A stretch of 64,000 nucleotides of DNA, from positions 2,553,001-2,617,000 of the forward strand of contig NZ_CP086111.1 in the NCBI RefSeq assembly GCF_016806835.2, in the 5' to 3' direction. Position 1 is the first letter of the stretch; every line of letters begins with the position of its first letter. The notes beneath the pieces were generated by a model. It did no database searches. It was not told the origin of the DNA and saw nothing but the letters and a program-made list of their open reading frames with translations. The position numbers and the translations under genes are program-made. Shown here piece after piece: positions 48,235 through 64,000 of the stretch. Origin of the DNA: Skermanella rosea (GTDB lineage: Bacteria > Pseudomonadota > Alphaproteobacteria > Azospirillales > Azospirillaceae).

Positions 48235-48513
48235 ATGATAAAGAGTTTCCGTGACAAGACCACCGAGGAGCTTTTCCGGCTCGGATCTGCCAGGAGATTT
48301 TCGTCAGTTTCGAAAGTGGCCTCGCGTAAACTCGACATGATCAATGCCGCGATCGCACTGGATGATCTTCGCAGCCCTCCCGGCAACAGGCTGGAAGCGT
48401 TGAAGGGAGATCGTTGCGGGCAACACAGTATTTGCATAAACGAACAATGGCGCATCTGCTTCCGATGGAGTGGCGACGGTGCCGACGACGTGGAGATCGT
48501 AGATTATCACTGA
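48235..48513 (+). CDS. higB: HigB-type toxin (RelE/ParE superfamily)
   Basis: 92 residues. MIKSFRDKTTEELFRLG, the RKLDMINAAIALDDLRSPPGNRLEALKGDR core and the C-terminal WRICFRW...VEIVDYH are the standard HigB-1 pattern. These toxins are ribosome-dependent mRNA endonucleases. The gene precedes the antitoxin by 22 bases, the toxin-first order typical of higBA. The gene is less GC-rich than its neighbours, as usual for mobile toxin-antitoxin pairs. Confidence 0.93.
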   Translation: MIKSFRDKTTEELFRLGSARRFSSVSKVASRKLDMINAAIALDDLRSPPGNRLEALKGDRCGQHSICINEQWRICFRWSGDGADDVEIVDYH

Positions 48514-48535
48514 CGATCATCAGCCTGGAGGGTAC

Positions 48536-48823
48536 ATGAGACTGAAGACCCACCCTGGAGAAGTGTTGCGCGAAGAATTCCTGGCTCCCCTTGGGCTATC
48601 CGCGAATGCCCTTGCCACGGCGTTGCGTGTGCCCGTTACGCGTATCAGCGAAATCATCCACGAACGACGCGCCGTCACGGCTGATACGGCTCTGCGCCTG
48701 GGTCGCTACTTCGGCACGTCACCCGAGTTCTGGATGAATCTTCAGCAAGCTTACGATTTGTCCGTCGTGGCCAGGGACCGCGGCGGCGATATAGAACGTG
48801 ACGTCCAGCCGCGGGCGGCGTAG
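48536..48823 (+). CDS. higA: HigA-type antitoxin (XRE helix-turn-helix)
   Basis: 95 residues. HPGEVLREEFLAPLGLSANALATAL is the HigA family start, and ALRVPVTRISEIIHERR the helix-turn-helix; RYFGTSPEFWMNLQQAYDL is a near-invariant C-terminal block. It neutralises HigB and represses the operon. Follows the toxin gene directly. Confidence 0.95.
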   Translation: MRLKTHPGEVLREEFLAPLGLSANALATALRVPVTRISEIIHERRAVTADTALRLGRYFGTSPEFWMNLQQAYDLSVVARDRGGDIERDVQPRAA

Positions 48824-51934: not shown

Positions 51935-52537
51935 TCAGCCCCCGGGCGGGTTGAAGCGGATCAGGGCCCGGCGGGGCAGGAAACGCGGGTTGTTCCGCTG
52001 GCGCTCGGAGAAGGGCGTCAGCGGGTCCCGATCGACGTTCGGGTTCTCCGACACGATGCCGGTCGTGCGAAAGTCGAAGAAGCTGGCGTTGATCGTGAAG
52101 TCGGGCAGGCGCCAGACGATCCTGACGGCGCTGGGCACCGCGATGTCGCCGTCCCGCGCCGTCTCCTCCGGTTCGCCATAGCGGTCGGTCAGGGCCCGGA
52201 CGATGTCCTCGAACACCACGGGCGTCGCCTGCCGGCCGCGCCGTTCCAGCAGGATCTGCCCCAGGCCGCCGGTCCGGCGGTCGATCTGGAGGAAGGCGCG
52301 GAACGGGATGCCGCCGACCTCGACATCCTCGACCGTGGTTTCCGAGAAGTAGCGTCCGAAGTCCCAACGGCCGGGCAAAGGGTTGGCGGATTCGCCCAGG
52401 GCGTCGGAAATCTCGGCCGGGCTCATGCCCCAGCGGACGCGCCCCAGGGTCTCCAGGTCGGCCGCCAGGGCGGCAGCGGCCAGGACGGCGGATTGCAGCG
52501 CCGAGACCAGGAGGAGCGCCGCGGCCAGGCGGGCCAT
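51935..52537 (-). CDS. Exported hypothetical protein co-translated with S10 carboxypeptidase
   Basis: 200 residues. Signal peptide at 1-26 (LAAALLLVSALQSAVLAAAALAAD region). The mature part has VRWGMSPAEISDALGE, an arrangement seen in many small periplasmic proteins in which a short conserved WGMSxxEV motif starts a beta-rich domain, and ends in an FNPPGG tail. Its ATG overlaps the stop of the peptidase gene (ATGA), so both are made together. No known function. Confidence 0.7.
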   Translation of the reverse strand: MARLAAALLLVSALQSAVLAAAALAADLETLGRVRWGMSPAEISDALGESANPLPGRWDFGRYFSETTVEDVEVGGIPFRAFLQIDRRTGGLGQILLERRGRQATPVVFEDIVRALTDRYGEPEETARDGDIAVPSAVRIVWRLPDFTINASFFDFRTTGIVSENPNVDRDPLTPFSERQRNNPRFLPRRALIRFNPPGG

Positions 52538-54096
52538 CACCGCCGTCCCCCCGCCGACTGCCCGTAGAAGCGGGCGACATCCTCGTTCATCAGGCGGCGC
52601 TGCTCGGGCCGCATATACATCATATGGCCGCCCGGGTAGGTTTTGACCGCGAGGTTCGCCTTGACCTCGGCCGGCAGGCGGAGCTGGTCGATCAGCCAGC
52701 GCGACGCCAGGTAGGGGGTCACAAGGTCGGTGATGCCGTGGGTCACCAGGACATGCATGTCGGGATTGACCGCCAGCGCTTCCTGAAGCTCGTCGGTCGC
52801 CCCGACATAGCCCTGCTGCCGGCCGAGGTCCCAGTTCCACTCGCCGGAGACGCGGCGGTTCAGCAGCCGGTAGGGCACCTCCGTCTCGAAGCCCAGCTCC
52901 GTCCGGACGTAATCATTGAACACGGCGGAGTAGGGAGCGATCAGGGCGTCCAGGAAGGGGTCGGACCCGACCGACTGGCGTTCGGGGCTGGGGTCGGGAG
53001 TCCTGATCGTCCCGTCGTAGAGGCTGACCACACGCCCCGGTTCCTGCGGCAACTCCTTGGCGAAGAGCTGGATCGGCAGTTTGGCGCGGAACCGCTCCAC
53101 CACGTGCACCGGCACGCCGGTCAGTCGGGCGACGCGGGCGTGGAAGGCCTTGGCCTCCTCGCTGTCCGGCTCGCTCATCGAGGCGAGGCCGACCAGATAG
53201 CCTTCGAGCGCGAAACGTTCCGCCTCCTCCAGCGAGGTTCCGTCGCCCCGGCCGAGCGCCTGGGCCGAGGCGGCCATGGAGGGCAGGGTCATGGCCCAGC
53301 CGAGCAGGTCGAAGTCGCCCCCGCGCAGCAGCGAGAATTCCAGCGCCGGGGAGACCAGGACGAGCCCGTTCAGCGCGATGCCGGCGTCGCGCTGGAGCTG
53401 GCGGGCCATCAGGACCGCGCGAAAGCCCCCATAGCTCTCGCCGGCGATGTATTTGGGCGAGGCCCAGCGGCCGTTGCGGGTCAGCCAGAGCCTGACGATC
53501 TCCGACATGCTGGAGACATCGCCCTGGACGCCGAGGAAGCGCTTCTCCGCGTCGTCCTCCTTGCCGGTCGCGCGGGAAAAGCCGGTGCCGACGGGGTCGA
53601 CGAACACGAGGTCGGTGAAGGCCAGCCAGGTTTCCGGATTTTCCTGGAGCCGTGCCGGCGGAGGCGCCAGCGTGCCGTCCGGATTGGTGACCAGCACCTT
53701 GGGGCCGACCACGCCCAGATGCAGGAAGGCGGAGGCGGCGCCGGGGCCGCCGTTGAACAGGAAAGTCACCGGGCGGTCCGAGCGGCCGGCATCGCGCGCG
53801 ATGTAGGAGGCCACGAAGATGCGGGCGGTCGTTTCCCCCTGGCCGTTGACGATCGGCATCATCTCCGCCGTGGCGGTGTAGTCGAGCCGGCGGCCGGCCA
53901 AGTCGAGCGCCAGTTGCCTGCGTGCCGGGGCGGCATCCGGGGCCGGACCGGGAGCCGGTGTCGCCGCCTCCTCCGTTTCCTCGGGTGGTTGCAGCGGCAT
54001 CTCCTGGGCGGCGACGGGCGGGCCGGCCAGCAGCCAAGCGGCCGTCAGGGCTGCGGCAAAGGACCGACGGGGAAAGGGCGGCGAGTTCTGGAGCAT
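52537..54096 (-). CDS. S10 family serine carboxypeptidase-like, exported
   Basis: 519 residues. Signal peptide 1-30, then a Pro/Glu/Ala-rich linker. FLFNGGPGAASAFLHLG is the S10 oxyanion region; the nucleophile is in YIAGESYGGFRA; Asp in THGITDLVTPY; His in TYPGGHMMYM. Bacterial S10 peptidases remove C-terminal residues from periplasmic or imported peptides. It is the first gene of a two-gene unit with an unknown exported protein. The window also has two cytoplasmic M20 enzymes and a peptide importer, so peptide use is a theme. Confidence 0.9.
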   Translation of the reverse strand: MLQNSPPFPRRSFAAALTAAWLLAGPPVAAQEMPLQPPEETEEAATPAPGPAPDAAPARRQLALDLAGRRLDYTATAEMMPIVNGQGETTARIFVASYIARDAGRSDRPVTFLFNGGPGAASAFLHLGVVGPKVLVTNPDGTLAPPPARLQENPETWLAFTDLVFVDPVGTGFSRATGKEDDAEKRFLGVQGDVSSMSEIVRLWLTRNGRWASPKYIAGESYGGFRAVLMARQLQRDAGIALNGLVLVSPALEFSLLRGGDFDLLGWAMTLPSMAASAQALGRGDGTSLEEAERFALEGYLVGLASMSEPDSEEAKAFHARVARLTGVPVHVVERFRAKLPIQLFAKELPQEPGRVVSLYDGTIRTPDPSPERQSVGSDPFLDALIAPYSAVFNDYVRTELGFETEVPYRLLNRRVSGEWNWDLGRQQGYVGATDELQEALAVNPDMHVLVTHGITDLVTPYLASRWLIDQLRLPAEVKANLAVKTYPGGHMMYMRPEQRRLMNEDVARFYGQSAGGRR

Positions 54097-54260: not shown

Positions 54261-55010
54261 ATGGAACTTGGCACTGCGGTTACCACCGTCAAAGGCGACC
54301 CGATCACGGTCGCCGACGTGATCCTTCACCTCAAGGCCAAGGGGACCTTCCGCACCGCGATCTATGAGATCATCGAACGGCGGGTGGTCGAGTACAAGCT
54401 GGAGGAGCATGGCGTCAGCCTGACCGACGTCGAGATCGAGGAAAGGGTCCATGGCCGCAAGACGATGCTGGCGCTGTGGGACGAGAACGCTTTCGCCTCC
54501 TATCTCAAGCATTTCGGCCTGACCCGCGAGCAGTGGCTGGACACGCTGGCGGCCGACATGCGGCGGGAGCGGCTGCGCGACCTGGTGGTCACCAGGGAGC
54601 TGGTGCAGAATCACTACCGCCAGAACAGCGCCCGCTTCACCTCCGTCTCGATCGCGCGGATCGCCTGCCGCACCAGGGCCGACGCGGAGCGCGCGCTGGC
54701 TGCGGTCGGCGCCCGGCAGGCTGATTTCGTGGAGCTGGCGCGGACCTACTCGGTCGATGACAATACGAGGCTGAGCGGCGGCTATATCGGCAACCTGAAG
54801 CGCGGCATGCTGCCGGCCGAGGTGGACGAGCGGGCCTTCGCCTGCGGTGAGAACGAGATCATCGGCCCGTTCTCCGAAAACGGGCTGTGGACCATCTACA
54901 AGGTCTATTCGCGGACCGTGACCAAGCTGAACGACGCCCTGACGAAGCAGATCAAGGACCACATCTTCGAGGAGTGGCTGCGCCATCAGGTCTGCGTCGC
55001 TCCGGCGTGA
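54261..55010 (+). CDS. PpiC/parvulin-related protein without signal peptide, coupled to HlyD
   Basis: 249 residues. N-terminal helical SurA-like part (residues 1-120, ITVADVILHLKAKGTF, REQWLDTLAADMRRERLRDLVV), then a parvulin-like domain (about 125-215) with ADFVELARTYSVDDNTRLSGGYIGNLKRGMLP. Unlike periplasmic SurA/PpiD there is no signal or membrane anchor, so it should be cytoplasmic. PpiC-related proteins of this type occur in several putative peptide maturation and export loci. Its stop overlaps the HlyD start codon by four bases (GTGA). Confidence 0.83.
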   Translation: MELGTAVTTVKGDPITVADVILHLKAKGTFRTAIYEIIERRVVEYKLEEHGVSLTDVEIEERVHGRKTMLALWDENAFASYLKHFGLTREQWLDTLAADMRRERLRDLVVTRELVQNHYRQNSARFTSVSIARIACRTRADAERALAAVGARQADFVELARTYSVDDNTRLSGGYIGNLKRGMLPAEVDERAFACGENEIIGPFSENGLWTIYKVYSRTVTKLNDALTKQIKDHIFEEWLRHQVCVAPA

Positions 55011-56437
55011 CCGTGGGGATCCGGGATCGGGGCCGTTCCGTGGCAACGGCGAAGCCCGCGAAACCCATCCGGAAGCGGACGCCGCCGAAGCCGGCCGGCA
55101 AGGCTTTGGCCAAGCGGTCGCGGGACGAGGACCGGCATCCGCTGAAGGCGGCGACGCTGCTGTTCTCCTCGCCGAACCCGCTGTTCCGCGCGCCGGTCTA
55201 TGTCCTGTTCTTCACGCTGCTGGGAATGCTGATCTATTCCTTCTTCGCGACCAAGGACACGACGGTGGAGGCGCCGCTGATGCTCCAGCGGCAGGCGATG
55301 ATGATCCAGGCGGTCGGCGGCGGGCTGGTGGAGGCGGTCGAGGCCGGCGAGAACGCAGCGGTGTTCGCGGGCGATCCGCTGGCCACGATCCAGGAGAAGA
55401 TCCGGGCGGCGACCACGCCCGAGCAGGAGGCCATGCAGCGCCAGATCGCCGACCTTCAGCAGCAGGAGCGGGAGGCGGCCAAGGAGTACGATTTCCGCCT
55501 GAGCCAGCTGGAACTCGACCGACTGAACCTGGAGCGGCGCCGCGCCACCGAGCAGGGGGCGATCGACAACCGCATCCGGCAGATCGAGATCCAGCTCCAG
55601 ATCACCCAGCGCAACCGCCAGGGAATCGACGAGGATCTGGCGAACGCCCGGCAGGACCTGGGCGTCCGGCAGCAGCTCTATGCCATGCGCGACATCCCGC
55701 AGGTGGAGCTTCAACGTGCCCAGACCCGGGTCAGCGATCTCCAGCGCGCGCAAGTGAATGCCGAGTCCGACATACAGAACGTCAGGCTGGCGCTGGAGAC
55801 CGCGCGGGCCGAACGGGTCCAGATGGCGCAGACCTTCTCCCAGTCCAGGCTGGAGAACGAGATCGAGAACCTGAAGAGCGCCCGGCAGCGCGACCAGGCG
55901 CTGATCCGCGACCGCATCGACGAGTTGACCAACCGACTGCTGGAATCCCGCACGCTGGTCCCGGGTGTTCGTTACGACGGCGAGAAGGCGCTCTACAGCA
56001 GCGTCGTGGACGGCGTGGTGACGGCGGTCCATGTCCAACGCGGCACGATCATCAATCCCGGCATGCCGATGTTCACCATGGTGCGGAACACGGCGCCGCT
56101 GGAAGCCCATGTGCTGATCAAGAACCGCGACATCGGCCGGATCAGGCGCGGCCAACGGGTGCAGATCAAGTACTTCGCCTATCCGGGAGTCGACTACGGC
56201 GTTCAGAACGGGATCGTCGCCGACATCGCGGCCAAGCCGGACAGCCAGCCCGGCGGGCAGTCCATGTACCTGGTCAAGGTGGCGCTGGAGCGCGAGACGG
56301 TGACCGGGCTGAACGGCGTGACCAAGACGCTGGAGATCGGCCTGGAGGGCACCGCCGAGATCAAGACCGGCGAAAAGCGCCTGATCGAAATCCTGTTCGC
56401 CCCGGCTTCCCGCTTCTTCCAGAAGGAAGAGGGCTGA
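55007..56437 (+). CDS. HlyD-type membrane fusion protein (type I secretion)
   Basis: About 476 residues. A basic, Pro/Lys-rich cytoplasmic tail, one membrane helix (about 66-85, VYVLFFTLLGMLIYSFF), a lipoyl half-motif, a long coiled coil (about 135-310, Gln/Glu/Arg-rich heptads), a second lipoyl half and a beta-barrel domain (SVVDGVVTAVHVQRGTIINPGMPMF). This is the HlyD/adaptor design that links an inner-membrane ABC exporter to TolC. I use the GTG at 55007 (GTGA overlap with the PpiC stop); GTG at 55040 is an alternative. No exporter ATPase is in the window; a TolC-like gene is at the right edge. Confidence 0.9.
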   Translation: MTVGIRDRGRSVATAKPAKPIRKRTPPKPAGKALAKRSRDEDRHPLKAATLLFSSPNPLFRAPVYVLFFTLLGMLIYSFFATKDTTVEAPLMLQRQAMMIQAVGGGLVEAVEAGENAAVFAGDPLATIQEKIRAATTPEQEAMQRQIADLQQQEREAAKEYDFRLSQLELDRLNLERRRATEQGAIDNRIRQIEIQLQITQRNRQGIDEDLANARQDLGVRQQLYAMRDIPQVELQRAQTRVSDLQRAQVNAESDIQNVRLALETARAERVQMAQTFSQSRLENEIENLKSARQRDQALIRDRIDELTNRLLESRTLVPGVRYDGEKALYSSVVDGVVTAVHVQRGTIINPGMPMFTMVRNTAPLEAHVLIKNRDIGRIRRGQRVQIKYFAYPGVDYGVQNGIVADIAAKPDSQPGGQSMYLVKVALERETVTGLNGVTKTLEIGLEGTAEIKTGEKRLIEILFAPASRFFQKEEG

Positions 56438-56556
56438 GGTCCCGGATGGCCGCCGACACCGCGGATCTCCTTACCGGTGCCGGAATACCACCACTGCGAT
56501 GATCGCCGCAGCGAATTTGTGTTCGGGATCGGCCCGCGGCAGGGCAGGATACCGCC

Positions 56557-57336
56557 ATGACGATCTCTCTCACCGAACAAGCCGAATTCCTGGCAAGCGC
56601 CCGCAAGGCGGGCCGCGCGCTCCGGGAGTTTCCGGGCCACCCGCCGGCGAACGTGGACGAGGCCTACCGCCTTCAGGACGAGGTGCGGGCCGCCATGGAC
56701 GAACCGGTGTGCGGCTGGAAGATCGGCGCGACCAGCCGCCCGGTCCAGGAGGCGATCGGCACCGACGAGCCGTTCGCCGGACCCCTGTATGGTCCGCGTT
56801 GCCACGGCACCGGTGCCGAACTGCCCGTCCCGGAAGGCGTCCTGGGGGTGGAGTGCGAGTTCGCGTTCCGCCTCGCCCGTCCGCTGCCGCCGCGCCCTCT
56901 TCCCTATGCGCCCGAAGAGGTGGTCGAGGCCGTGGGCAGCGTGCATCCGGCCATCGAACTCGTCGGCCTGTACCTGCCGCCGGAGGCGTTCAGGGATGTC
57001 CGTTGGTGCATCGCCGACCATGCGCTCGACGTCGCCTTCGTCGCCGGTGCCGCGATCCCTGACTGGCGCGGTCTCGATCTTCCGGCGCTGCCGGTCCGCT
57101 GCATGGTCAATGGCAGGGAGGTCGCCGCCGGCACCGGGGCCGCCGTCCTCGGCGACCCGGTGACGGCGCTGACCTGGCTGGCGAATGCGCTCTCCCGCCG
57201 TGGCTGCGGCTTGCTGGCCGACGACTGGATCAGCACGGGCACCTGTACGGGCATCCAGCCCGTCCGGCCGAGGGATGTGGTCGAGGCGGTGTTCGGCGGC
57301 ACAGGCAGCGTCCGCGTGGCCTTTACCGGCGCTTGA
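56557..57336 (+). CDS. MhpD-type 2-keto-4-pentenoate hydratase / FAH-superfamily enzyme (second copy)
   Basis: 259 residues. VCGWKIGATSRPVQEAIG, LGVECEFAFRLARPL, AVGSVHPAIEL and ISTGTCTGIQPV match the hydratase family and the paralogue at 18544-19302, with clear but moderate similarity. It is set between an exporter gene and the ATP-grasp gene and is not obviously linked to either; a 2-oxo-acid catabolic role is likely. 119 bases separate it from the HlyD stop and it is convergent with the ATP-grasp gene. Confidence 0.82.
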   Translation: MTISLTEQAEFLASARKAGRALREFPGHPPANVDEAYRLQDEVRAAMDEPVCGWKIGATSRPVQEAIGTDEPFAGPLYGPRCHGTGAELPVPEGVLGVECEFAFRLARPLPPRPLPYAPEEVVEAVGSVHPAIELVGLYLPPEAFRDVRWCIADHALDVAFVAGAAIPDWRGLDLPALPVRCMVNGREVAAGTGAAVLGDPVTALTWLANALSRRGCGLLADDWISTGTCTGIQPVRPRDVVEAVFGGTGSVRVAFTGA

Positions 57337-57404
57337 TACGAATGATGCCGTCAGGCTGATGCTCGATCATGCGCTCCCGGCTTCATCACGCGGCGTTGCG
57401 GCGC

Positions 57405-58373
57405 CTAGGCCGCCGCCTCCAGCGTGCCGGTCCGGGCGAACGCGACGAGGTAGCGGGCGAGGGCGCCGAACACGGTGTGGCGGTGTTCGGGCGGCAGCCA
57501 CATGACGAACGGGCCGGGGTTGCAGTCGAGATATGTGAGCTTGCCGTCATCGTCCAGGATGGCGTCCCAGGCGGCATAGTGCAGGCCGAGGGCACGGTTG
57601 GCCCGGACGATGGCCTTCTCCTCCGCCGGGTCCAGCGTCACCGGCTCGAAGCCTCGGGTCGCGGTCCGGGAATCGACGCCGTCGGCCAGGATGCGGAGCG
57701 GCAGGACGACGCGGTCGGCGACGATGTGGATACGGATGGTGGAGCCGGGCACCCGATGCTGGAACAGCGCCGGGCACAGCAGTAGCTCGTCCAGCCGGGT
57801 CCTGTCCTCGGCCGTGACGCTGCGGGTGGAGCCGACGCCGATGGCGGGCTTGACGACCGCCTCCCCGACTTCGTCCAGGAAACGCCCGGCCTCGTCCGGG
57901 CAGCTCGTGCTGAGCGACCTCGGCACCCGGAAGCCGGCGGCGCGCAGCTTCTCGTAGAACTGCCCCTTGCTGTTGTGGTCGATGTAAGCGGAAGTCAGCC
58001 GGTTGATCACCAGCCGGCCGCCCAGGTGCAGATGCTCGAAGAAGCCGTAGGTCGCGGCGTTCAGCGCCTGTTCCTGGATGTAGGACACGCGGTACTCGGC
58101 ATAGCTCGCCTCGTTCAGCACGGGCGGCAGGACGGGCAGGGTGCGGGGCGCCGTGCAGCGGATATGGACCGCCCGAATGTCACCGAAGTCCGTGTCGCCC
58201 CAGCGGGCTGCCGCGGCGGAACCGGGCGCCCCGATGGCGACCGTCGGCTTGCCCGGCCGCCCGACCTGGATGTCCAGGACCACGGGCTCGGCCCCCAGCG
58301 CGGTCACCTCGGCGGCGATCTCGGCGATCTGGGCACTGTCCTGGTTGGCGAACAGGGCAATCTTCGCGGTCAT
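57405..58373 (-). CDS. RimK-like ATP-grasp ligase next to a glycine-rich peptide gene
   Basis: 322 residues. Pre-ATP-grasp domain, then the ATP-grasp fold: substrate/ATP region with KLRAAGFRVPRSLSTSCPDEA and the ATP-binding Lys in VVKPAIGVGSTRSV, and the metal motif in YLDCNPGPFVMW (D-x-NP in place of E-x-NP). The family joins a carboxylate to an amine, hydroxyl or thiol using ATP. The ATG at 58373 has GGAG nine bases upstream; an ATG at 58382 lies directly against that GGAG and is less likely. It begins 49 bases after the stop of the glycine-rich peptide gene on the same strand, the layout of precursor plus maturase in ATP-grasp RiPP loci. Confidence 0.82.
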   Translation of the reverse strand: MTAKIALFANQDSAQIAEIAAEVTALGAEPVVLDIQVGRPGKPTVAIGAPGSAAAARWGDTDFGDIRAVHIRCTAPRTLPVLPPVLNEASYAEYRVSYIQEQALNAATYGFFEHLHLGGRLVINRLTSAYIDHNSKGQFYEKLRAAGFRVPRSLSTSCPDEAGRFLDEVGEAVVKPAIGVGSTRSVTAEDRTRLDELLLCPALFQHRVPGSTIRIHIVADRVVLPLRILADGVDSRTATRGFEPVTLDPAEEKAIVRANRALGLHYAAWDAILDDDGKLTYLDCNPGPFVMWLPPEHRHTVFGALARYLVAFARTGTLEAAA

Positions 58374-58422
58374 TCCGGGCATCTCCGCAGGGTCGTCGCC
58401 GACCGGTCAGGAACCGAGGTGG

Positions 58423-58680
58423 TCAGAAGCTGATATTGATGGAGCCGATGGCGGTGTTGTCGGCGGCTCCCCCGCCCAGCGCGCCGCCCGCGGTGGCGGA
58501 GGAATACCCGTCGCCGCCGGACCCGGACGCGCCCGCCTGGCCGAACGAGGCTCCGAACCCGCCGCCGGCCGATGCCGAGCCCGACCCCGTGCCGCCGACC
58601 CCGGAGGAGCCGGCATGGCCATGGCCGAACGCGTCGCCGCCGGATTTCCCGCTTTGGTCGAAGTTCAGATCAGTGCCCAT
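58423..58680 (-). CDS. Glycine/serine/alanine-rich 85-aa peptide, candidate RiPP precursor
   Basis: 85 residues: 28 Gly, 14 Ser and 13 Ala, no Cys, Trp or Pro. A short charged start (MGTDLNFDQSGKSGGDAF) is followed by a His-Gly segment (GHGH), a long Gly/Ser/Ala tract broken by Phe, Asp57 and Tyr59, and a distinct end NTAIGSINISF. AGGGAG lies seven bases before the ATG. Placement directly before an ATP-grasp ligase suggests a modified and exported peptide, with Asp, Ser, Thr or Lys side chains as candidate sites. A structural glycine-rich protein is the main alternative. Confidence 0.7.
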   Translation of the reverse strand: MGTDLNFDQSGKSGGDAFGHGHAGSSGVGGTGSGSASAGGGFGASFGQAGASGSGGDGYSSATAGGALGGGAADNTAIGSINISF

Positions 58681-58989
58681 GGACAAACTCCCTGCCGCAT
58701 GCCGTCGCCATACCGAGCCGAGGTTGCAACCAGAAGGAAATAATCGGTCGCGCGCATATGTCGTAGCGGGTGCCGTACCAGTCGATGTACCATTTGTTTC
58801 GGGCTTCGTCCATGGCTTCGTCCGGGCCAGCGCCTGCGGTGGCAAATCCAGAAGGTTAGACACCGAAGCGGCACGGTTTCCTTCAATTTTATATTTATCT
58901 TGAGTCACTCGGACGGGAATGACATTAACTCAGGGTGGACCGGACTGCCTCCCGACGGGCGCCGGCCCCCGATCAGGATGATTTCTTGA
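58681..58989. promoter_or_regulatory. 309-base divergent promoter region of the glycine-rich peptide and PP2C genes
   Basis: No credible gene. The part at 58880-58930 is strikingly AT-rich for this genome and contains TATAAA on the minus strand (58888-58893), a possible -10 element that would give the peptide mRNA a leader of about 200 bases. GTACCA occurs twice in direct repeat (58775-58780 and 58787-58792), 12 bases apart. Confidence 0.4.
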
Positions 58990-59751
58990 ATGACAGGCAC
59001 CAGACCCCGCTCAGTTCAGTATGCCGGCCTCACGGATGTCGGCCGCGTCCGCTCCCAGAACGAGGACTCGTTCCAGATCGATCCGGATCTCGGCCTCGTC
59101 CTCGTCGCGGACGGCATGGGTGGCCATGTCGGCGGCGACATCGCCAGCCGGACAGCGATCGAGGCGGTCAACGACTTCATCCTCGAATACGAGCCGGTGC
59201 CGGACGGGTTCGACCGGACGGGAACCGAGGGATCGATCGAGATCGCCCGCACCGCTGTCCATCGCGCGAACCAGCGGATCGTCGGCCTGAACCATGAGCG
59301 GGGGCTGCCGGACAACCGGGGGATGGGCACGACCATCGTCGGGTTCTGGCTGCCGTCGGGCTTGTCCCCGGCCATCGTCTTCCATGTCGGCGACAGCCGG
59401 CTCTACCGGCTTCGCGGCGGGCGGCTGGACCAGATCACCCACGACCACAGCCTTTACCAGGCCTGGGTGGATGCCGGCCGATCGGGTGCCCCGCCGAACC
59501 GCAACATCATCATGCGGGCGCTGGGCGTCGCGGACGATGCCGAAGCCGACGTATCCGTCGAGGAGACCCGGGCGGGCGACATTTTCCTGCTGTGCTCCGA
59601 CGGCCTGAACGGCATGGTCCCGGACGACACGATCATCGACATCCTGATCGAGCCGCTGCCGCTGGAAGAAGCCTGCCGCCGGCTGGTCGAGGAGGCGAAC
59701 GCCCATGGCGGCCGCGACAACGTGACGGTGGCCCTGGTTCGGTTCGACTGA
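58990..59751 (+). CDS. PP2C-type serine/threonine protein phosphatase
   Basis: 253 residues, soluble. All metal motifs are present: DVGRVRSQNEDSF, VLVADGMGGHVGGDIAS, GMGTTIVGFW, FHVGDSRLYRLR, LLCSDGLNGMV and GGRDNVTVALV. It removes phosphate from Ser/Thr residues, often the partner of a Hanks-type kinase and FHA proteins. No kinase lies in the window, but two FHA proteins are encoded convergently just downstream, so the three probably share a signalling circuit. Divergent from the glycine-rich peptide gene. Confidence 0.93.
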   Translation: MTGTRPRSVQYAGLTDVGRVRSQNEDSFQIDPDLGLVLVADGMGGHVGGDIASRTAIEAVNDFILEYEPVPDGFDRTGTEGSIEIARTAVHRANQRIVGLNHERGLPDNRGMGTTIVGFWLPSGLSPAIVFHVGDSRLYRLRGGRLDQITHDHSLYQAWVDAGRSGAPPNRNIIMRALGVADDAEADVSVEETRAGDIFLLCSDGLNGMVPDDTIIDILIEPLPLEEACRRLVEEANAHGGRDNVTVALVRFD

Positions 59752-59764
59752 CGGGATCCCCCCG

Positions 59765-60661
59765 CTATCCGGCCTCCCCCTCGATCGTGCCGCAACGGTA
59801 CCGGATGACATTGTCCGGGTCCTCGGCCGGCGCGATCCCGAGGGAGATCAGGCCGGAGGTCAGCAGGTAGGTCGGTTCCCGCTTCAGCACCAGCAGGCGC
59901 TGGCTTTCGTCGAGGCAGAAGGTGCCGTTGGTGCTGTGGTCGGTCAGGGTGAACCGGCCGTTCATGATCTCCAGCGTGGCATGTCGGCGCGAAGCCCAGT
60001 CGCTGTTGATCACCAGCCCGCAACCGACGTCGCGCCCCATCAGCACCGGCGCCGAGCCGGTGTCGAGGCGGAGCTGGCGTCCCCGGTGGGTCAGGATCAG
60101 GATGCCCCGGCGCTTGCCGCTGGCGCCATCGAGCTGGCCGGCCGCGACGGTCACGTTCTCCGGATCGCCGAGGGTGCGGTAGATCTCGACCGCGTCGATG
60201 CCGCCCTTGACCACCGCCGAATCGAGCCGCTGGGTGTTGGACCGGTAGGCCGGGTGCAGGGCGTCGACACAGGCGCGGGTCATCAGCACCTCGCCTGGGC
60301 TGGCGAGGGCGGCGAGGCGGGACGCGAGGTTGACCGTGGCGCCGAACACGTCGCCCGGGGTCACGATCACGGGTCCGATGGTGAAGCCGATCCTGACCTT
60401 CGGCTCGGTGCCGCGCAGCGCTTCCTGGATGTGGGCGGCGGCGCAGTAGGCGGTGTCGGCCGACGGGAAGGTGCTGAGCGCCCCGTCGCCCATGGTCTTG
60501 ACCACGGTTCCGGAATAGCGCTCGGTCGCCTCGATGATCTGGCCGACGCACCGCTCCGTCAGGGCGTGCGCGGCGGCATCTCCCAGGACCTGGTAAAGGC
60601 GCGTGCTGTCGCAAACGTCCGCGAACATCACCGCCATGGACTCGCCGGACTGGACCGTCAC
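59765..60661 (-). CDS. Class III adenylate/guanylate cyclase fused to FHA domain
   Basis: 298 residues from the GTG at 60661. N-terminal cyclase domain (about 5-165): metal Asp in VMFADVCDST, Lys and Asp in KTMGDGALS, and the transition-state Asn/Arg in GATVNLASRL, so it looks catalytically competent. C-terminal FHA domain (about 195-285) with MGRD, SRRHATL and STNGTF, which reads phospho-threonine. Starting at 60736 would overlap the upstream FHA gene by 56 bases and adds a poor N-terminus. Likely links Ser/Thr phosphorylation state to cyclic nucleotide output. Confidence 0.88.
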   Translation of the reverse strand: MTVQSGESMAVMFADVCDSTRLYQVLGDAAAHALTERCVGQIIEATERYSGTVVKTMGDGALSTFPSADTAYCAAAHIQEALRGTEPKVRIGFTIGPVIVTPGDVFGATVNLASRLAALASPGEVLMTRACVDALHPAYRSNTQRLDSAVVKGGIDAVEIYRTLGDPENVTVAAGQLDGASGKRRGILILTHRGRQLRLDTGSAPVLMGRDVGCGLVINSDWASRRHATLEIMNGRFTLTDHSTNGTFCLDESQRLLVLKREPTYLLTSGLISLGIAPAEDPDNVIRYRCGTIEGEAG

Positions 60662-60680
60662 GACCGCGCCACCCCGCTCG

Positions 60681-62012
60681 TCACCCCGGGCCGGACCCCA
60701 GGAACTCTTTCCACTGGTTGAGCAACGGCAGGTCACGGTCCTCGACCGACTTCACCGCCGAGTTGAACAGCACGTAGTCCACCGACAGGTACCTGTTCGT
60801 CTCCCGCCGGATCCGGGTGAAATCGAGCTTCTGCGCATCCAGCGCCTGGATGCGGTCGCGCGGCGGCTGGGCCGGGGCGAGCTTCGACACCTGCGGGAAC
60901 TCGGCCGAGAGGGCGCGCAGGTCGATCAGGATGCGGGCCAGCTTCACCAGTTCGCGGGCGACCGCGACTCCGTCGGCCGAGCCGTGCTCGGCATTGGCGG
61001 GAACACGGCCGGCCGTCGTCTCCAGGTCGGCGTTCAGCCGTTCGGTCAGGCGGCGCAGGCTGGCCAGGTCTCCCTTTGCGAGCAGAGGCAGGAACTCCCG
61101 CTCGAAGGACAGGAACTTCATGCGGGCCGCCAGGTCGGCCAGCGGCGCGCTCTGTTCGGAAGCGAGCAGCCGGCCGCTGTCGGCGATCGCCTCCGCCAGG
61201 TCGTTCAAGTCCTGGTCGAACGAGGCGGCCTGGTTGCCGCCGGCATACTGGGATGCGCGGTCGATCACCCGCTTGCGGACCGCGGCGGAATGCTCGATCG
61301 TCTGTGCGATGAACTGCTGCTTCTTGTGGATCGGGTAATAGACGGCGGCCCCGATGCCCAGCCCCGCCAGCACGATGCCCACCACGCCGCCCAGGACCAG
61401 CCTGCCGCGGATGCCGGAGCGTTCCCGCTCTTCCCCGGCGCCGTCCTCGTCCTCGTCGATCTTCACCTTGACGGGGGCTTCCACCTTTCGGACGGCGTCG
61501 AGCACGGCCTTCCCGGCACCCAGGCTGCCGACCATCATGGTCCGCTCGGACAGGTCGTCGTCATGGTGGACGGGCAGGGCGCGTCCGCGCTCCGGCGAGT
61601 TGGCGGGAGGGCGGTCCAGCTCGAAACGGAAGGCCAGGGAGCCGAGCCTGACCTCGTCATTGTGCTTCAGCCAGATCGTATTGATCTTGTGGCCGTTGAC
61701 GTAGACGCCGTTGGTGCTGTTGAGATCCTCGACGCCCCAGGTGCCCTCGCCGGGAAACAGCTTGGCATGCTGGCGCGAGAGCTTGCGGGACGCGACGACG
61801 AACGAGCTGGCGTCGCCCCGCCCTATCGTCACCGTCTTTCCGCCGGGCAGCGGCACCACGACCTGGGCCGGAGCGCCGTCGATCTGCGACGGATCCAGGC
61901 AGATGAGCTTTCCGTCCGGATTGCCGGCAGGCGCGTTCGCTCCGCCGGCGGCACCGGCCCTGCGCCCCTGGTCGCGTACCAGCATGGTTCTGTCTTGATT
62001 TGAATCGATCAT
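60681..62012 (-). CDS. FHA-domain membrane protein
   Basis: 443 residues. FHA domain at about 55-145 (IGRGDASS, SRKLSRQHAKLF, DLNSTNGVYVNG), an acidic linker (DEDEDGAGEE), one membrane helix near 205-230 (LVLGGVVGIVLAGLGIGAAVYYP) and a helical C-terminal part of about 210 residues, probably periplasmic. The ATG at 62012 is preferred over 62060, which would add a basic stretch. It would place a phosphothreonine reader on the inner membrane. Upstream of and close to the cyclase-FHA gene (20 bases). Confidence 0.87.
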   Translation of the reverse strand: MIDSNQDRTMLVRDQGRRAGAAGGANAPAGNPDGKLICLDPSQIDGAPAQVVVPLPGGKTVTIGRGDASSFVVASRKLSRQHAKLFPGEGTWGVEDLNSTNGVYVNGHKINTIWLKHNDEVRLGSLAFRFELDRPPANSPERGRALPVHHDDDLSERTMMVGSLGAGKAVLDAVRKVEAPVKVKIDEDEDGAGEERERSGIRGRLVLGGVVGIVLAGLGIGAAVYYPIHKKQQFIAQTIEHSAAVRKRVIDRASQYAGGNQAASFDQDLNDLAEAIADSGRLLASEQSAPLADLAARMKFLSFEREFLPLLAKGDLASLRRLTERLNADLETTAGRVPANAEHGSADGVAVARELVKLARILIDLRALSAEFPQVSKLAPAQPPRDRIQALDAQKLDFTRIRRETNRYLSVDYVLFNSAVKSVEDRDLPLLNQWKEFLGSGPG

Positions 62013-62130
62013 CGCTCGACGGAATGTCCGGGCCAGGTGATGTGCAGGACGCCTCGGCATGGGGGCCGTTGCGCCGCAGCGCGGAGCCGCAGGGTCACTA
62101 TGCCGAAGCGTGGCATTTTAAGCAACCGCA

Positions 62131-62157
62131 GCGGTAATAATTAACGGTAATTAACCT
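62131..62157. repeat. Tandem GTTAATTA boxes one helical turn apart
   Basis: On the minus strand the sequence reads GTTAATTACC then GTTAATTATT, two copies of GTTAATTA with a 10-base period, followed by ACC. It is an AT island in GC-rich DNA directly after the ATP-grasp stop and about 120 bases upstream of the FHA gene, so it may be a regulator site or a promoter element. Confidence 0.4.
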
Positions 62158-63213
62158 TTATGCGGGAGGTGCGGCCGCATGCTTGGTCCGCTCGATGTCG
62201 AACTGGATGCGGAGCATGCGGCGCAGAAAGAGACTGTCCCTGGGGGCAGCCGCGAGCCCGTCGGCCGTGGGGTGCGGCTCCCCGGCGAGGGTGGCGGCCA
62301 GGCACCCGGTCAGGTGCTCGCCCATCGCCCCGGGAAGGTCCGTCACCGCCGGATCGGCGTCCACGTCGTAGATGACGGGGCCGTCGGGGCCGGCGACGTA
62401 AAGGACGCTGCCCCAACGCAGGCCGGACAGGGCAAGCGCGGTCCCGGCGACGCTGCTCTCGGCGTCCGGCAGCGGTCCCGTGACAGGACCGAAGACCTCC
62501 AGGCGCTCCAGCCCATCGTCGGACGGCATGGCCCATTCGAGCGTCAGGACGGTCCGGCCGTCGATCGCGTAGGCGCGGCGCAGCGGCCCGTCCACGGTCG
62601 GCGCCAGCAGGACGGGCGGCTTGTCCGCCCCCATCAAGTGTTCGCGCTGGCGGTCGCGGAACAGCTGCCAAGCGCATTTTCCGGTCGCCGTCCGCCACAC
62701 GACGGCACGCCCCTGGTCGGCCACGGACCGGGCGAAGTCCCGCGCGATGTCGGGATCATTGGTGCAGATCGCGCGGGCGACCGCCAGCCCCCCCTGGTCG
62801 AGGCGTTCCAGCTGATGGTGGCGCGGAAAGGCCGCGAGGTGCCCGGCCGGGCCGTTGTAGAGCCGCACCGGCGCGTCTTCGAGCCGGGACAGCAGGCTGT
62901 AGAGGAAGCTGTAGCGCTGCTGCCGCCGGACATGCTCCGACTGCCACAGGGACCAGTCGGCGCCGGGTTCGGTGCCGGGGTCGGCGGCCGGGATCACCGG
63001 GTCCTCGTAGCGGAAGCCATGGACGAACAGGGCGTCGAACCGGTCGAGCTCGTGCCCGTTCCAGCGGATGCCGGCCTGGCCCACGCTCATCCGGGTTCCT
63101 TCCGGCATCGAGGCGTCGAGCCAGGGCACGTCGCTTCCCAGGCGCCGGCACAGCCCGGCATGGAGGCGGCGGCCGAAGGGAGAGGCCGCCGGCGCGATCA
63201 GGCCGATCTTCAT
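62158..63213 (-). CDS. ATP-grasp-like protein coupled to TolC-type gene
   Basis: 351 residues. The start MKIGLIAPAASPFGRRL and FDALFVHGFRYEDP are those of a RimK/glutathione-synthetase-like pre-ATP-grasp domain, and NGPAGHLAAFPRHHQLERLDQGGLA resembles the ATP-grasp entry helix of peptide-modifying ligases. The expected E-x-N metal motif is not clear: the corresponding place reads YDVDADPAV. It may be a degenerate, peptide-binding paralogue of the ligase at 57405. Its ATG overlaps the stop of the TolC-type gene by four bases (ATGA), so export and this protein are made together. Confidence 0.62.
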   Translation of the reverse strand: MKIGLIAPAASPFGRRLHAGLCRRLGSDVPWLDASMPEGTRMSVGQAGIRWNGHELDRFDALFVHGFRYEDPVIPAADPGTEPGADWSLWQSEHVRRQQRYSFLYSLLSRLEDAPVRLYNGPAGHLAAFPRHHQLERLDQGGLAVARAICTNDPDIARDFARSVADQGRAVVWRTATGKCAWQLFRDRQREHLMGADKPPVLLAPTVDGPLRRAYAIDGRTVLTLEWAMPSDDGLERLEVFGPVTGPLPDAESSVAGTALALSGLRWGSVLYVAGPDGPVIYDVDADPAVTDLPGAMGEHLTGCLAATLAGEPHPTADGLAAAPRDSLFLRRMLRIQFDIERTKHAAAPPA

Positions 63214-64000
63214 GGTTTTCCTTCCGGTTTGGCGACCCGGTCCTGCCGGGACTCGGCGGGTCTGAAGAAAGAGAGGTGGCCGGCATCGGCCAGCAACGAG
63301 AGGCGGTTGCGGTCGAACTGGCTGACGACGGTCTGTTCCGCCAGCGCGCCCGCGATGGTCCCCTCGGCGAACAGCAGTCCGCTCTCGGCCTGCTTGGCCT
63401 CGACCCGCGCCCCGGTCAGGGCGAGCCGGGCGGAGAGCAGGCGGCGCGTCGCCTGGATCAGCTCGTCCTCCGACACCGTGCCGGTGAGCGCCTGCTGGCG
63501 CTCCAGGCTGGCGACGGCGGTCGCGAGGTTGTCGACTTCGGCGGCGCCCGCCCTGACCCGGGCGCGGGAGGCCTGGACTGCAGCCAGCCGCTCGGTGATC
63601 TCGCGGCGGACGCGGTTCTGGAGGGACTGGGTGGCATAATCCTGATCCTGCGTGCCGAGCCGCGCGATCTCGGCGCCGGCCTCGGCGGAGCGGTTCGCCC
63701 AGGGATAGGACAGGCCCAGGCCGTAGCTCTGGTTGAGGCTGTCCGGCGACGCTATCCCGGTATGGCTCTCGAGGGGGTCGGCATAGCCGTAGGACGTCCC
63801 GTTCTGGCCGGCGGTGACGCTGGCGACGAACCGGAGATCCAGGCGGGCCTGGTTGCGGGCCAGGGCCTCGTTGATCTCGCGCAGGACCCGGTTGATGTCG
63901 TCCACCTTGAAGTCGGGCCGGCTCTCCCGGGCGGTGCGCAAGGCGGTCTCCAGGTCGACAGGCACGGCCTGCGCCAGGTCGTCCTCGTAGTCGACCGGCA
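63210..64000 (-). CDS. TolC-family outer-membrane efflux protein, C-terminal part (cut by window edge)
   Basis: At least 263 residues; the frame stays open to the right edge, so the N-terminus lies outside. The helical repeats typical of TolC are visible: ALRTARESRPDFKVDDINRVLREINEALARNQARLDL, LGLSYPWANRSAEA and LQNRVRREITERLAAVQASRARVRAGAAEVDNLATAVASLERQQALTGTVSEDELIQ. Outer-membrane channel for type I export. It probably works with the HlyD-type protein at 55007 and an ABC exporter that should lie outside the window. Confidence 0.87.
   Translation of the reverse strand, partial: PVDYEDDLAQAVPVDLETALRTARESRPDFKVDDINRVLREINEALARNQARLDLRFVASVTAGQNGTSYGYADPLESHTGIASPDSLNQSYGLGLSYPWANRSAEAGAEIARLGTQDQDYATQSLQNRVRREITERLAAVQASRARVRAGAAEVDNLATAVASLERQQALTGTVSEDELIQATRRLLSARLALTGARVEAKQAESGLLFAEGTIAGALAEQTVVSQFDRNRLSLLADAGHLSFFRPAESRQDRVAKPEGKP

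Follow-up and report, generated by a model that had tools for sequence, protein, structure and literature searches.

Introduction

The closest described pathway to the one considered here is that of rosaritide (graspetide group 21, MirABCD; Carter et al. 2026, PMC13097080). According to that paper, its TIGR04187 synthetase needs a TIGR04500 partner, and rosaritide requires the N-domain of MirC, residues 1-90. Graspetide mining of the kind that PMC8939145 describes looks for precursors next to the ligase. On the side of secretion, passages of PMC8277102 link C39 domains without the catalytic Cys to large RTX cargo, above 50 kDa, and describe Escherichia coli TolC as a homotrimer. Here we analyze a stretch of 64,000 nucleotides from Skermanella rosea (G000:C1:2553001-2617000, in a genome of 7.76 Mb), hereafter the window, whose numbering is used throughout. 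The right-hand part of the window carries a cassette with an ATP-grasp ligase (GRASP1), a small glycine-rich peptide gene, a PpiC-type protein, an HlyD-type adaptor, a second ATP-grasp-fold protein (GRASP2) and the beginning of a run of TolC genes. We suggest that this cassette is part of a system devoted to graspetide-type biosynthesis and to type I secretion, in which modification and secretion are predicted. We put the probability of this reading at roughly 0.6.

Genes were taken from open reading frame (ORF) calling and from Pfam and NCBIfam scans. These recovered every gene that the initial annotation had named, i.e., the PpiC-HlyD pair, the 85-aa peptide with its ligase, the second ATP-grasp-fold protein, TolC, and the PP2C, FHA and cyclase genes.

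Results

The ligase and its glycine-rich peptides

GRASP1 (57405..58382, minus strand, 325 aa) is by homology a graspetide-synthetase-type ATP-grasp ligase, since PsnB is its best match both by profile and by model. In the profile search PsnB (7drm) comes first with an E value of 5.5e-33, well above MdnC, MdnB, PruB and RimK. The AlphaFold model (predicted local distance difference test, pLDDT, 79.8) likewise has PsnB as its top Foldseek match (E 1.6e-22), and the identity over the model is 24-26%. The GRASP1 motifs VKP, DSR, AWD and LDCN align with YKP, DFR, GMD and LELN of PsnB. K178, D237-S-R239, D273, D286 and N288, which we take to be the ATP-site residues and the D-x-R motif, are invariant in 11/11 sequences from three lineages. 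Among NCBIfam models, the best is TIGR04187 ('ATP-grasp ribosomal peptide maturase'), at 65.6 bits against a cut-off of 350. One GRASP1-type match (L163 6688-7620, in G582) has a single TGA inside the aligned stretch.

The ligase-adjoining peptide gene (58423..58680, minus strand, 85 aa) ends 40 nt before GRASP1 and is one of a family of 56 distinct members. In the scan for precursor family models, the ORF that contains it (58423-58908) had no Pfam or NCBIfam match up to E 0.1. The 56 members were collected by a pattern that demanded Q..K.GG and [DN]N[TS].[IVL], and divergent copies are therefore missing from the set; a variant at L031, copies cut by contig ends and the scattered copies of G080 were left out. 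Every member has Q-x-x-K-x-G-G close to its N-terminus and D-N-T-x-I close to its C-terminus. The constancy goes further than the pattern required: the tenth residue after the Gln is Gly in 56/56, and the Asp, Thr and Ile of D-N-T-x-I are likewise present in 56/56. The Asp of this motif is the twelfth residue from the C-terminus in every peptide, thus the C-terminal segment is constant in length. Invariant Lys, Asp and Thr (56/56, the Lys being demanded by the search pattern) make up the candidate donor and acceptor core. The Lys is the only one in 54 of the peptides, a second acidic site is Asp or Glu in 53, and Cys occurs in none of the 56. Between these ends lies a variable middle of 51-61 aa with 39% Gly, 21% Ala and 11% Ser. 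The variant at L031 (2462-2620) is a 52-aa peptide standing in a tandem row; it keeps the N-terminal motif and has hardly any middle, its C-terminal motif reads D-T-T where the family has D-N-T, and it contains a Cys.

The peptide ends are under purifying selection. The nonsynonymous rate (dN) is below the synonymous rate (dS) in 28/28 orthologue pairs for the ends and in 27/28 for the middle, these being short sequences and non-independent pairs. Three further peptide genes lie in the window genome, distant from the cassette; no common function was seen among their neighbors, which were read from translations only.

GRASP2 (62158..63213, minus strand) gave only a weak TIGR04187 match in the NCBIfam scan, and its PsnB fold was confirmed by later profile and model searches. 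PsnB matches the profile at 1.7e-17 and is the top match of the AlphaFold model (pLDDT 73.0) at 8.5e-20, and hhalign relates GRASP2 to GRASP1 at 99.3%. K178, R239, D273 and N288 of GRASP1 are matched in GRASP2 by Arg, Leu, Leu and Asp, and the Asp is retained at the positions of D237 and D286. Across eight GRASP2 proteins the Arg at the K178 position and the Asp at the N288 position are invariant, the R239 position is Leu, Val or Met, and the D273 position is Leu or Ile. To judge from these replacements, GRASP2 is probably a partner without activity.

Co-occurrence and gene order

We searched 82 genomes of the host's order, 48 of a second class (Magnetococcales) and wider samples of the class (n=385) and the phylum (n=398). 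The entry to the second class was G501, the contig of which is identical to L020, a locus of a Magnetococcales metagenome-assembled genome. In the order GRASP1 is found in 9/82 genomes, and the peptide profile, built from 17 members, finds the identical nine, with E values from 2.4e-26 to 2.2e-14 except for three partial matches. Ligase and peptide likewise share the identical 6/48 Magnetococcales genomes, and one additional alphaproteobacterial metagenome-assembled genome has both. GRASP1 was found in 4/385 genomes of the class, among them a weak match in G159 (9e-22), and in 7/398 of the phylum, the window genome included in each. A peptide gene is present in 16/16 ligase-positive genomes examined and adjoins the ligase in 14 of them; in the remaining two (G049 and G050) it lies elsewhere in the genome. 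Outside these 16 stand the weak match in G159 and two partial matches in Mycobacterium. The positives are partly so by construction, because seven of the nine order genomes and one of the six Magnetococcales genomes supplied rows of the peptide profile; the other seven peptide positives and all negatives are independent of profile building. The initial annotation had held that ATP-grasp homologues occurring mostly without the peptide gene would speak against a common system. For the ligase, this comparison gave identical sets of genomes.

PpiC is found in 8/82 order genomes, all of them ligase-positive, and GRASP2 in 10/82, namely the nine ligase-positive genomes and G047. The cassette is syntenic in five Skermanella as far as the fetched stretches extend. 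In G049, G050, G056 and G057, GRASP2, three TolC genes and the FHA gene are at a site separate from that of the ligase and PP2C. In L160, L161, L162 and L164, from four of the six ligase-positive Magnetococcales genomes, three TolC genes, GRASP2, two to four peptide genes and GRASP1 are contiguous and co-directional in this order (the contigs of L161 and L164 are cut inside the first TolC). In L160 and L162 this run is headed by an ABC exporter and an FHA protein. The co-occurrence of ligase and peptide, together with the contiguity of the genes in relatives, therefore argues that the window genes form one system, as had been proposed from the window alone.

PpiC, adaptor, exporter and TolC paralogues

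The PpiC-type protein (54261..55010, plus strand, 249 aa; Pfam Rotamase 2.9e-10) has no obvious signal peptide and is followed after about 26 bp by the HlyD-type adaptor (about 55037-56437, plus strand, start codon uncertain; TIGR01843 112.3 bits, cut-off 208.65), which agrees with the signal-less, HlyD-coupled PpiC first described here. Its best NCBIfam model is TIGR04500, 'putative peptide maturation system protein'. The match covers model positions 90-329 of 340, and because it begins at position 90 the window protein apparently has no counterpart of the MirC N-domain.

All three components of type I secretion, i.e., ABC, HlyD and TolC, are encoded, although the Skermanella ABC protein is on another replicon. 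In L095, L096, L097, L098 and L099 an exporter of 1060-1113 aa adjoins PpiC-HlyD. Pfam divides it, in the four loci scanned (L095, L096, L097 and L099), into two cyclic-nucleotide (cNMP)-binding stretches, a C39 domain, an ABC permease and an ATPase; its best NCBIfam model, TIGR01846, stays below the cut-off of that model. A sigma-54 activator adjoins the PpiC-HlyD-ABC run in L095, L096, L097 and L099. By reading, NiFe-hydrogenase-like genes are near this run on opposite sides in two genera (L095 14569-19000 and L097 9598-13222). Relatives of the exporter, at 61-63% identity, are found together with a second HlyD away from the cassette in the Skermanella genomes G000, G078, G079 and G081. In the window genome the pair is on contig C2 (exporter at G000:C2:46944-50138), this HlyD being 66% identical to that of the window, and in S. 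mucosa it is on plasmid pSM-2. Thus, the expectation of an ABC exporter to the right of position 64000 was borne out as to its existence and not as to its place, since the right side holds three TolC genes and a sigma-54 activator. In the ligase-free genomes G005, G059, G066 and G047, none of the matches listed covers the N-terminal third of the exporter; the best of them start at residue 320 or beyond and reach 38% identity, with 43% for a short match to the ATPase alone.

The catalytic Cys of the C39 domain is replaced by Ser, Ala, Asn or Thr in 9/10 aligned exporters and is present in L162 only. By alignment, then, the exporter lacks the C39 domain with catalytic Cys of a peptidase-containing ABC transporter (PCAT), and this loss makes uncleaved export likelier in Skermanella. 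Both cNMP folds of the exporter seem, as read from the alignment, to be without the phosphate-binding Arg, which is presumably the usual motif of this fold.

Though the initial annotation rightly placed a TolC-type gene next to the second ATP-grasp protein, this gene is cut by the window end and two more follow beyond it. These are TolC_A (63210-65165, 651 aa; Pfam OEP in its window part), TolC_B (65162-67210) and TolC_C (67207-69114), all on the minus strand and all matching TIGR01844 below its cut-off. A tree of 27 rows (two of them partial) from nine genomes of both classes separates groups A, B and C, each on one side of a branch and each with one protein per genome in identical gene order, with support of 95/95, 95/94 and 100/100. 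All three therefore date from before the separation of the two lineages of the system and have been retained in both. Such retention is what a hetero-trimeric channel would lead one to expect, and three separate homotrimers would account for it as well. The word 'heterotrimeric' does not occur in the part of the PMC8277102 text examined, and no such TolC channel is evident in the titles or abstract openings of the literature matches listed.

The sigma-54 regulon

We counted 16 matches to the sigma-54 consensus TGGCAYGNNNNTTGCW across the 7.76 Mb genome, against six for a reversed-pattern control. Three of the 16 are directly upstream of the three scattered peptide genes, and the other 13 disclosed no additional peptide gene. 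Across the fetched loci, sites scoring 12 or more within a 110-nt window are found at 21/32 first-in-row peptide genes versus 1/23 tandem downstream copies and 51/20,000 random windows; the orthologues counted are non-independent. The 11 first-in-row copies without a site are the five Skermanella cassette copies and those of L083, L084, L085, L160, L162 (11.4) and L164.

A double palindrome, GTCCA-N7-TKGAC...TCC...GAC, begins 89-156 bp upstream of the sigma-54 site at 13/13 scattered peptide copies fetched from four Skermanella. Its scoring matrix was built from 12 of the 13, and the copy in L073 is independent. The sigma-54 activator of the cassette (69227-70546, plus strand, outside the window; Pfam Sigma54_activat) is divergent from the TolC run. 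The obvious candidate for binding the palindrome, we infer, is the activator encoded next to PpiC or TolC. By reading, the next gene is elongation-factor-G-like.

Signaling genes and other genes of the locus

A PP2C phosphatase (58990..59751, plus strand; Stp1-type NF033484, 205 bits, cut-off 230) is near the ligase in 9/9 ligase-positive order genomes and in L019. The FHA protein (60681..62060, minus strand; Pfam FHA E 8e-18), has a hydrophobic segment noted by reading. In other genera, and likewise in Magnetococcales, this protein retains its place next to the TolC genes or the exporter. Between PP2C and this gene lies a nucleotide cyclase domain fused to an FHA domain (59765..60736, minus strand; Pfam Guanylate_cyc 3.6e-11, FHA 3.5e-10), a gene found beside the ligase in the five Skermanella only. 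Gating by cyclic nucleotides is not confirmed, the cyclase being restricted to Skermanella and the Arg of the cNMP folds not being apparent. Genes resembling Ser/Thr protein kinases were seen by reading near PP2C in G056 (L032 14289-16259) and near GRASP2 in G057 (L034 3-1349); they are possible partners of PP2C and FHA.

Two neighbors were considered as parts and dropped. An FAA-hydrolase-like gene (56557-57336) stands between HlyD and the ligase in the window genome only, one of five Skermanella; it was rejected, since the same interval has no match in L024, L025, L026 and L028. An S10-type peptidase with an apparent signal peptide (52537-54096, family by reading) is divergent from PpiC in 5/5 Skermanella and was set aside as a core part, having no match in the locus stretches of other genera. 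Farther left, a small gene pair at 48235-48823 resembles what we take to be a HigB/HigA toxin-antitoxin module.

Related chassis without the ligase

Similar export genes are found in more distant bacteria. A plasmid of Caballeronia sp. SBC2 (L169 4892-5347 and 7127-17734) encodes PpiC, HlyD, a cNMP-C39-ABC exporter (33% identical, with an intact DCG in C39), a sigma-54 activator (42%), PP2C and FHA, together with two small ORFs that by reading resemble double-glycine precursors; the ATP-grasp queries had no match within 27 kb. Plasmid pLBY of Leptolyngbya boryana (L170 7774-15909) has a small ORF, a peptidylprolyl isomerase, a cNMP-C39-ABC exporter, HlyD and a second peptidase-type ABC protein in succession, and neither ATP-grasp nor peptide queries matched in the stretch fetched. 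The chassis for export and regulation therefore has a wider distribution than the graspetide part.

Discussion

The scheme that we propose for chemistry, export, partner roles, conduit make-up and regulation is a prediction drawn from gene content, homology, co-occurrence and promoter-like sites. Gly/Ala/Ser-rich precursors would be made from one gene adjoining the ligase and from others scattered in the genome, the latter being transcribed from sigma-54 promoters that the activator encoded with the machinery would fire. GRASP1 would use ATP to activate an Asp carboxylate and link it to the side chain of Lys or Ser/Thr. The residues likeliest to take part are the Asp and Thr that never vary in the C-terminal D-N-T-x-I, together with the equally constant Lys close to the N-terminus. 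PpiC and the probably inactive GRASP2 may serve as partner or substrate-holding proteins. PpiC is a plausible partner of GRASP1 because, in rosaritide, a TIGR04500 protein can be essential to a TIGR04187 synthetase, and we speculate that GRASP2 might supply the function of the N-domain apparently missing from PpiC. The peptide would then exit, uncleaved in most species, through the ABC exporter with its Cys-less C39 domain, HlyD and an outer-membrane conduit of the three specialized TolC paralogues. The FHA and PP2C proteins may set activity through phosphorylation.

Several points weigh against this reading. The precursors have a sole invariant acidic position, whereas the graspetides described so far have cores with several Asp/Glu residues, and no leader motif of the form Phhx(1,2)h is apparent in them; cleavage at the N-terminal GG, should it occur, would leave the invariant Lys in the leader. 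PpiC was not found in the ligase-positive genome G056 in the 82-genome search, and G047 has GRASP2 with neither GRASP1 nor peptide found there. No clear orthologue of the exporter was found in G056 or in the single-contig assembly G080. The Caballeronia chassis has PpiC without an ATP-grasp match in 27 kb, so the task of PpiC may lie in export and not with the ligase. The inactivity of GRASP2 is only a prediction because some ATP-site positions are kept and Arg replaces Lys, and the AlphaFold alignments are shallow (7 rows for GRASP1, 4 for GRASP2). Finally, the palindrome was not found at the machinery loci and promoters scanned, and a common switch for peptides and machinery is therefore not established.

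A more elaborate form of the proposal would be a new secreted class of cross-linked peptides with scattered precursors (constant ends, a variable Gly-rich middle) united by a private sigma-54 enhancer regulon, Lys-Asp stapled ends closing a ring of about 60 residues, a synthetase with an inactive paralogue, uncleaved export and an obligate 1:1:1 hetero-trimeric TolC channel. Taken as a whole, we consider this improbable. An alternative that we regard as equally unlikely is that GRASP1 forms no ring and acts like RimK, attaching a small amine or an amino acid at the fixed C-terminus or at the carboxylate of D-N-T, with the tag directing secretion or assembly. The identical length of the C-terminal segment in 56/56 peptides would suit such an enzyme, RimK structures are among the matches of the GRASP1 model, and Pfam gives a weak RimK match below its cut-off. 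However, PsnB, MdnC, AMdnB, CdnC and PruB outrank RimK by sequence and by the best model-search chain, and GRASP1 has retained the DxR motif.

A little more doubtful still is the idea that the peptides stay unmodified and that the PpiC-HlyD-ABC-TolC chassis secretes them as matrix or surface peptides, with the ATP-grasp pair only holding or chaperoning them. Their low-complexity middle (G 39%, A 21%, S 11%), the alterations at the catalytic positions of GRASP2, and the similar chassis without ATP-grasp matches in Caballeronia and partly in Leptolyngbya are all consistent with it. Against it stand the catalytic motifs of GRASP1, invariant in 11 sequences from three lineages, which mere holding would not need. 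Chance neighbors with a spurious peptide ORF can be dismissed almost entirely: GC-rich DNA readily yields Gly-rich ORFs and the Skermanella machinery is split across several loci and replicons, but the identical co-occurrence in two classes, the contiguous Magnetococcales run, the purifying selection and the sigma-54 sites already contradict this.

If the graspetide reading is true, graspetides come to include long Gly-rich precursors whose genes lie apart from that of the synthetase. Mining confined to the surroundings of ligases would pick up none of the scattered copies, and none of the full copies that we found in G049 and G050. The system would also provide a natural pairing of an active with a probably inactive synthetase. 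Its putative partner protein is TIGR04500-like and apparently has no N-domain, its small cargo is paired with a C39 domain devoid of the Cys, and its TolC proteins are candidates for a hetero-oligomeric channel. In the literature searched, we found no paper on the Gly-rich peptide family or on an ATP-grasp system of Skermanella or Magnetococcales, though a supplementary listing among the 19 newer graspetide groups is possible.

Compared with known systems, the window set looks like a new graspetide branch. With the HlyB class of type I secretion, as described in PMC8277102, it has in common the ABC, HlyD and TolC components and the C39 domain without catalytic Cys; the differences are a cargo of about 85 aa, out of keeping with the large cargoes that the review connects with such C39 domains, two N-terminal cNMP-binding folds and three TolC paralogues. 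With the cNMP-C39-ABC set of Leptolyngbya pLBY it shares the chassis of PpiC, exporter and HlyD. GRASP1 shares its fold and the aligned ATP-site and DxR motifs with PsnB (7drm-7drp) and the microviridin enzymes MdnB and MdnC. Rosaritide has in common with it a TIGR04187-related ATP-grasp protein, a TIGR04500-related PpiC-type protein, a peptidase-type ABC exporter and a small precursor. However, the scores are far under the cut-offs for ligase (65.6/350), PpiC (76.9/180) and exporter (531.4/853.3). Group 21 is marked by a synthetase and a partner above the cut-offs and by the N-domain, and by these scores and the position of the TIGR04500 match the window set falls outside it. The window precursor, unlike that of rosaritide, is Gly-rich and has no multi-Asp core, and GRASP2, the three TolC genes, HlyD, FHA/PP2C and the sigma-54 regulon are outside the Mir set as described. 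What is new here is the combination of scattered precursors with invariant ends, a private regulon, a Cys-less C39 domain (9/10 exporters), a probably inactive synthetase paralogue and three TolC paralogues older than the split of the two lineages.

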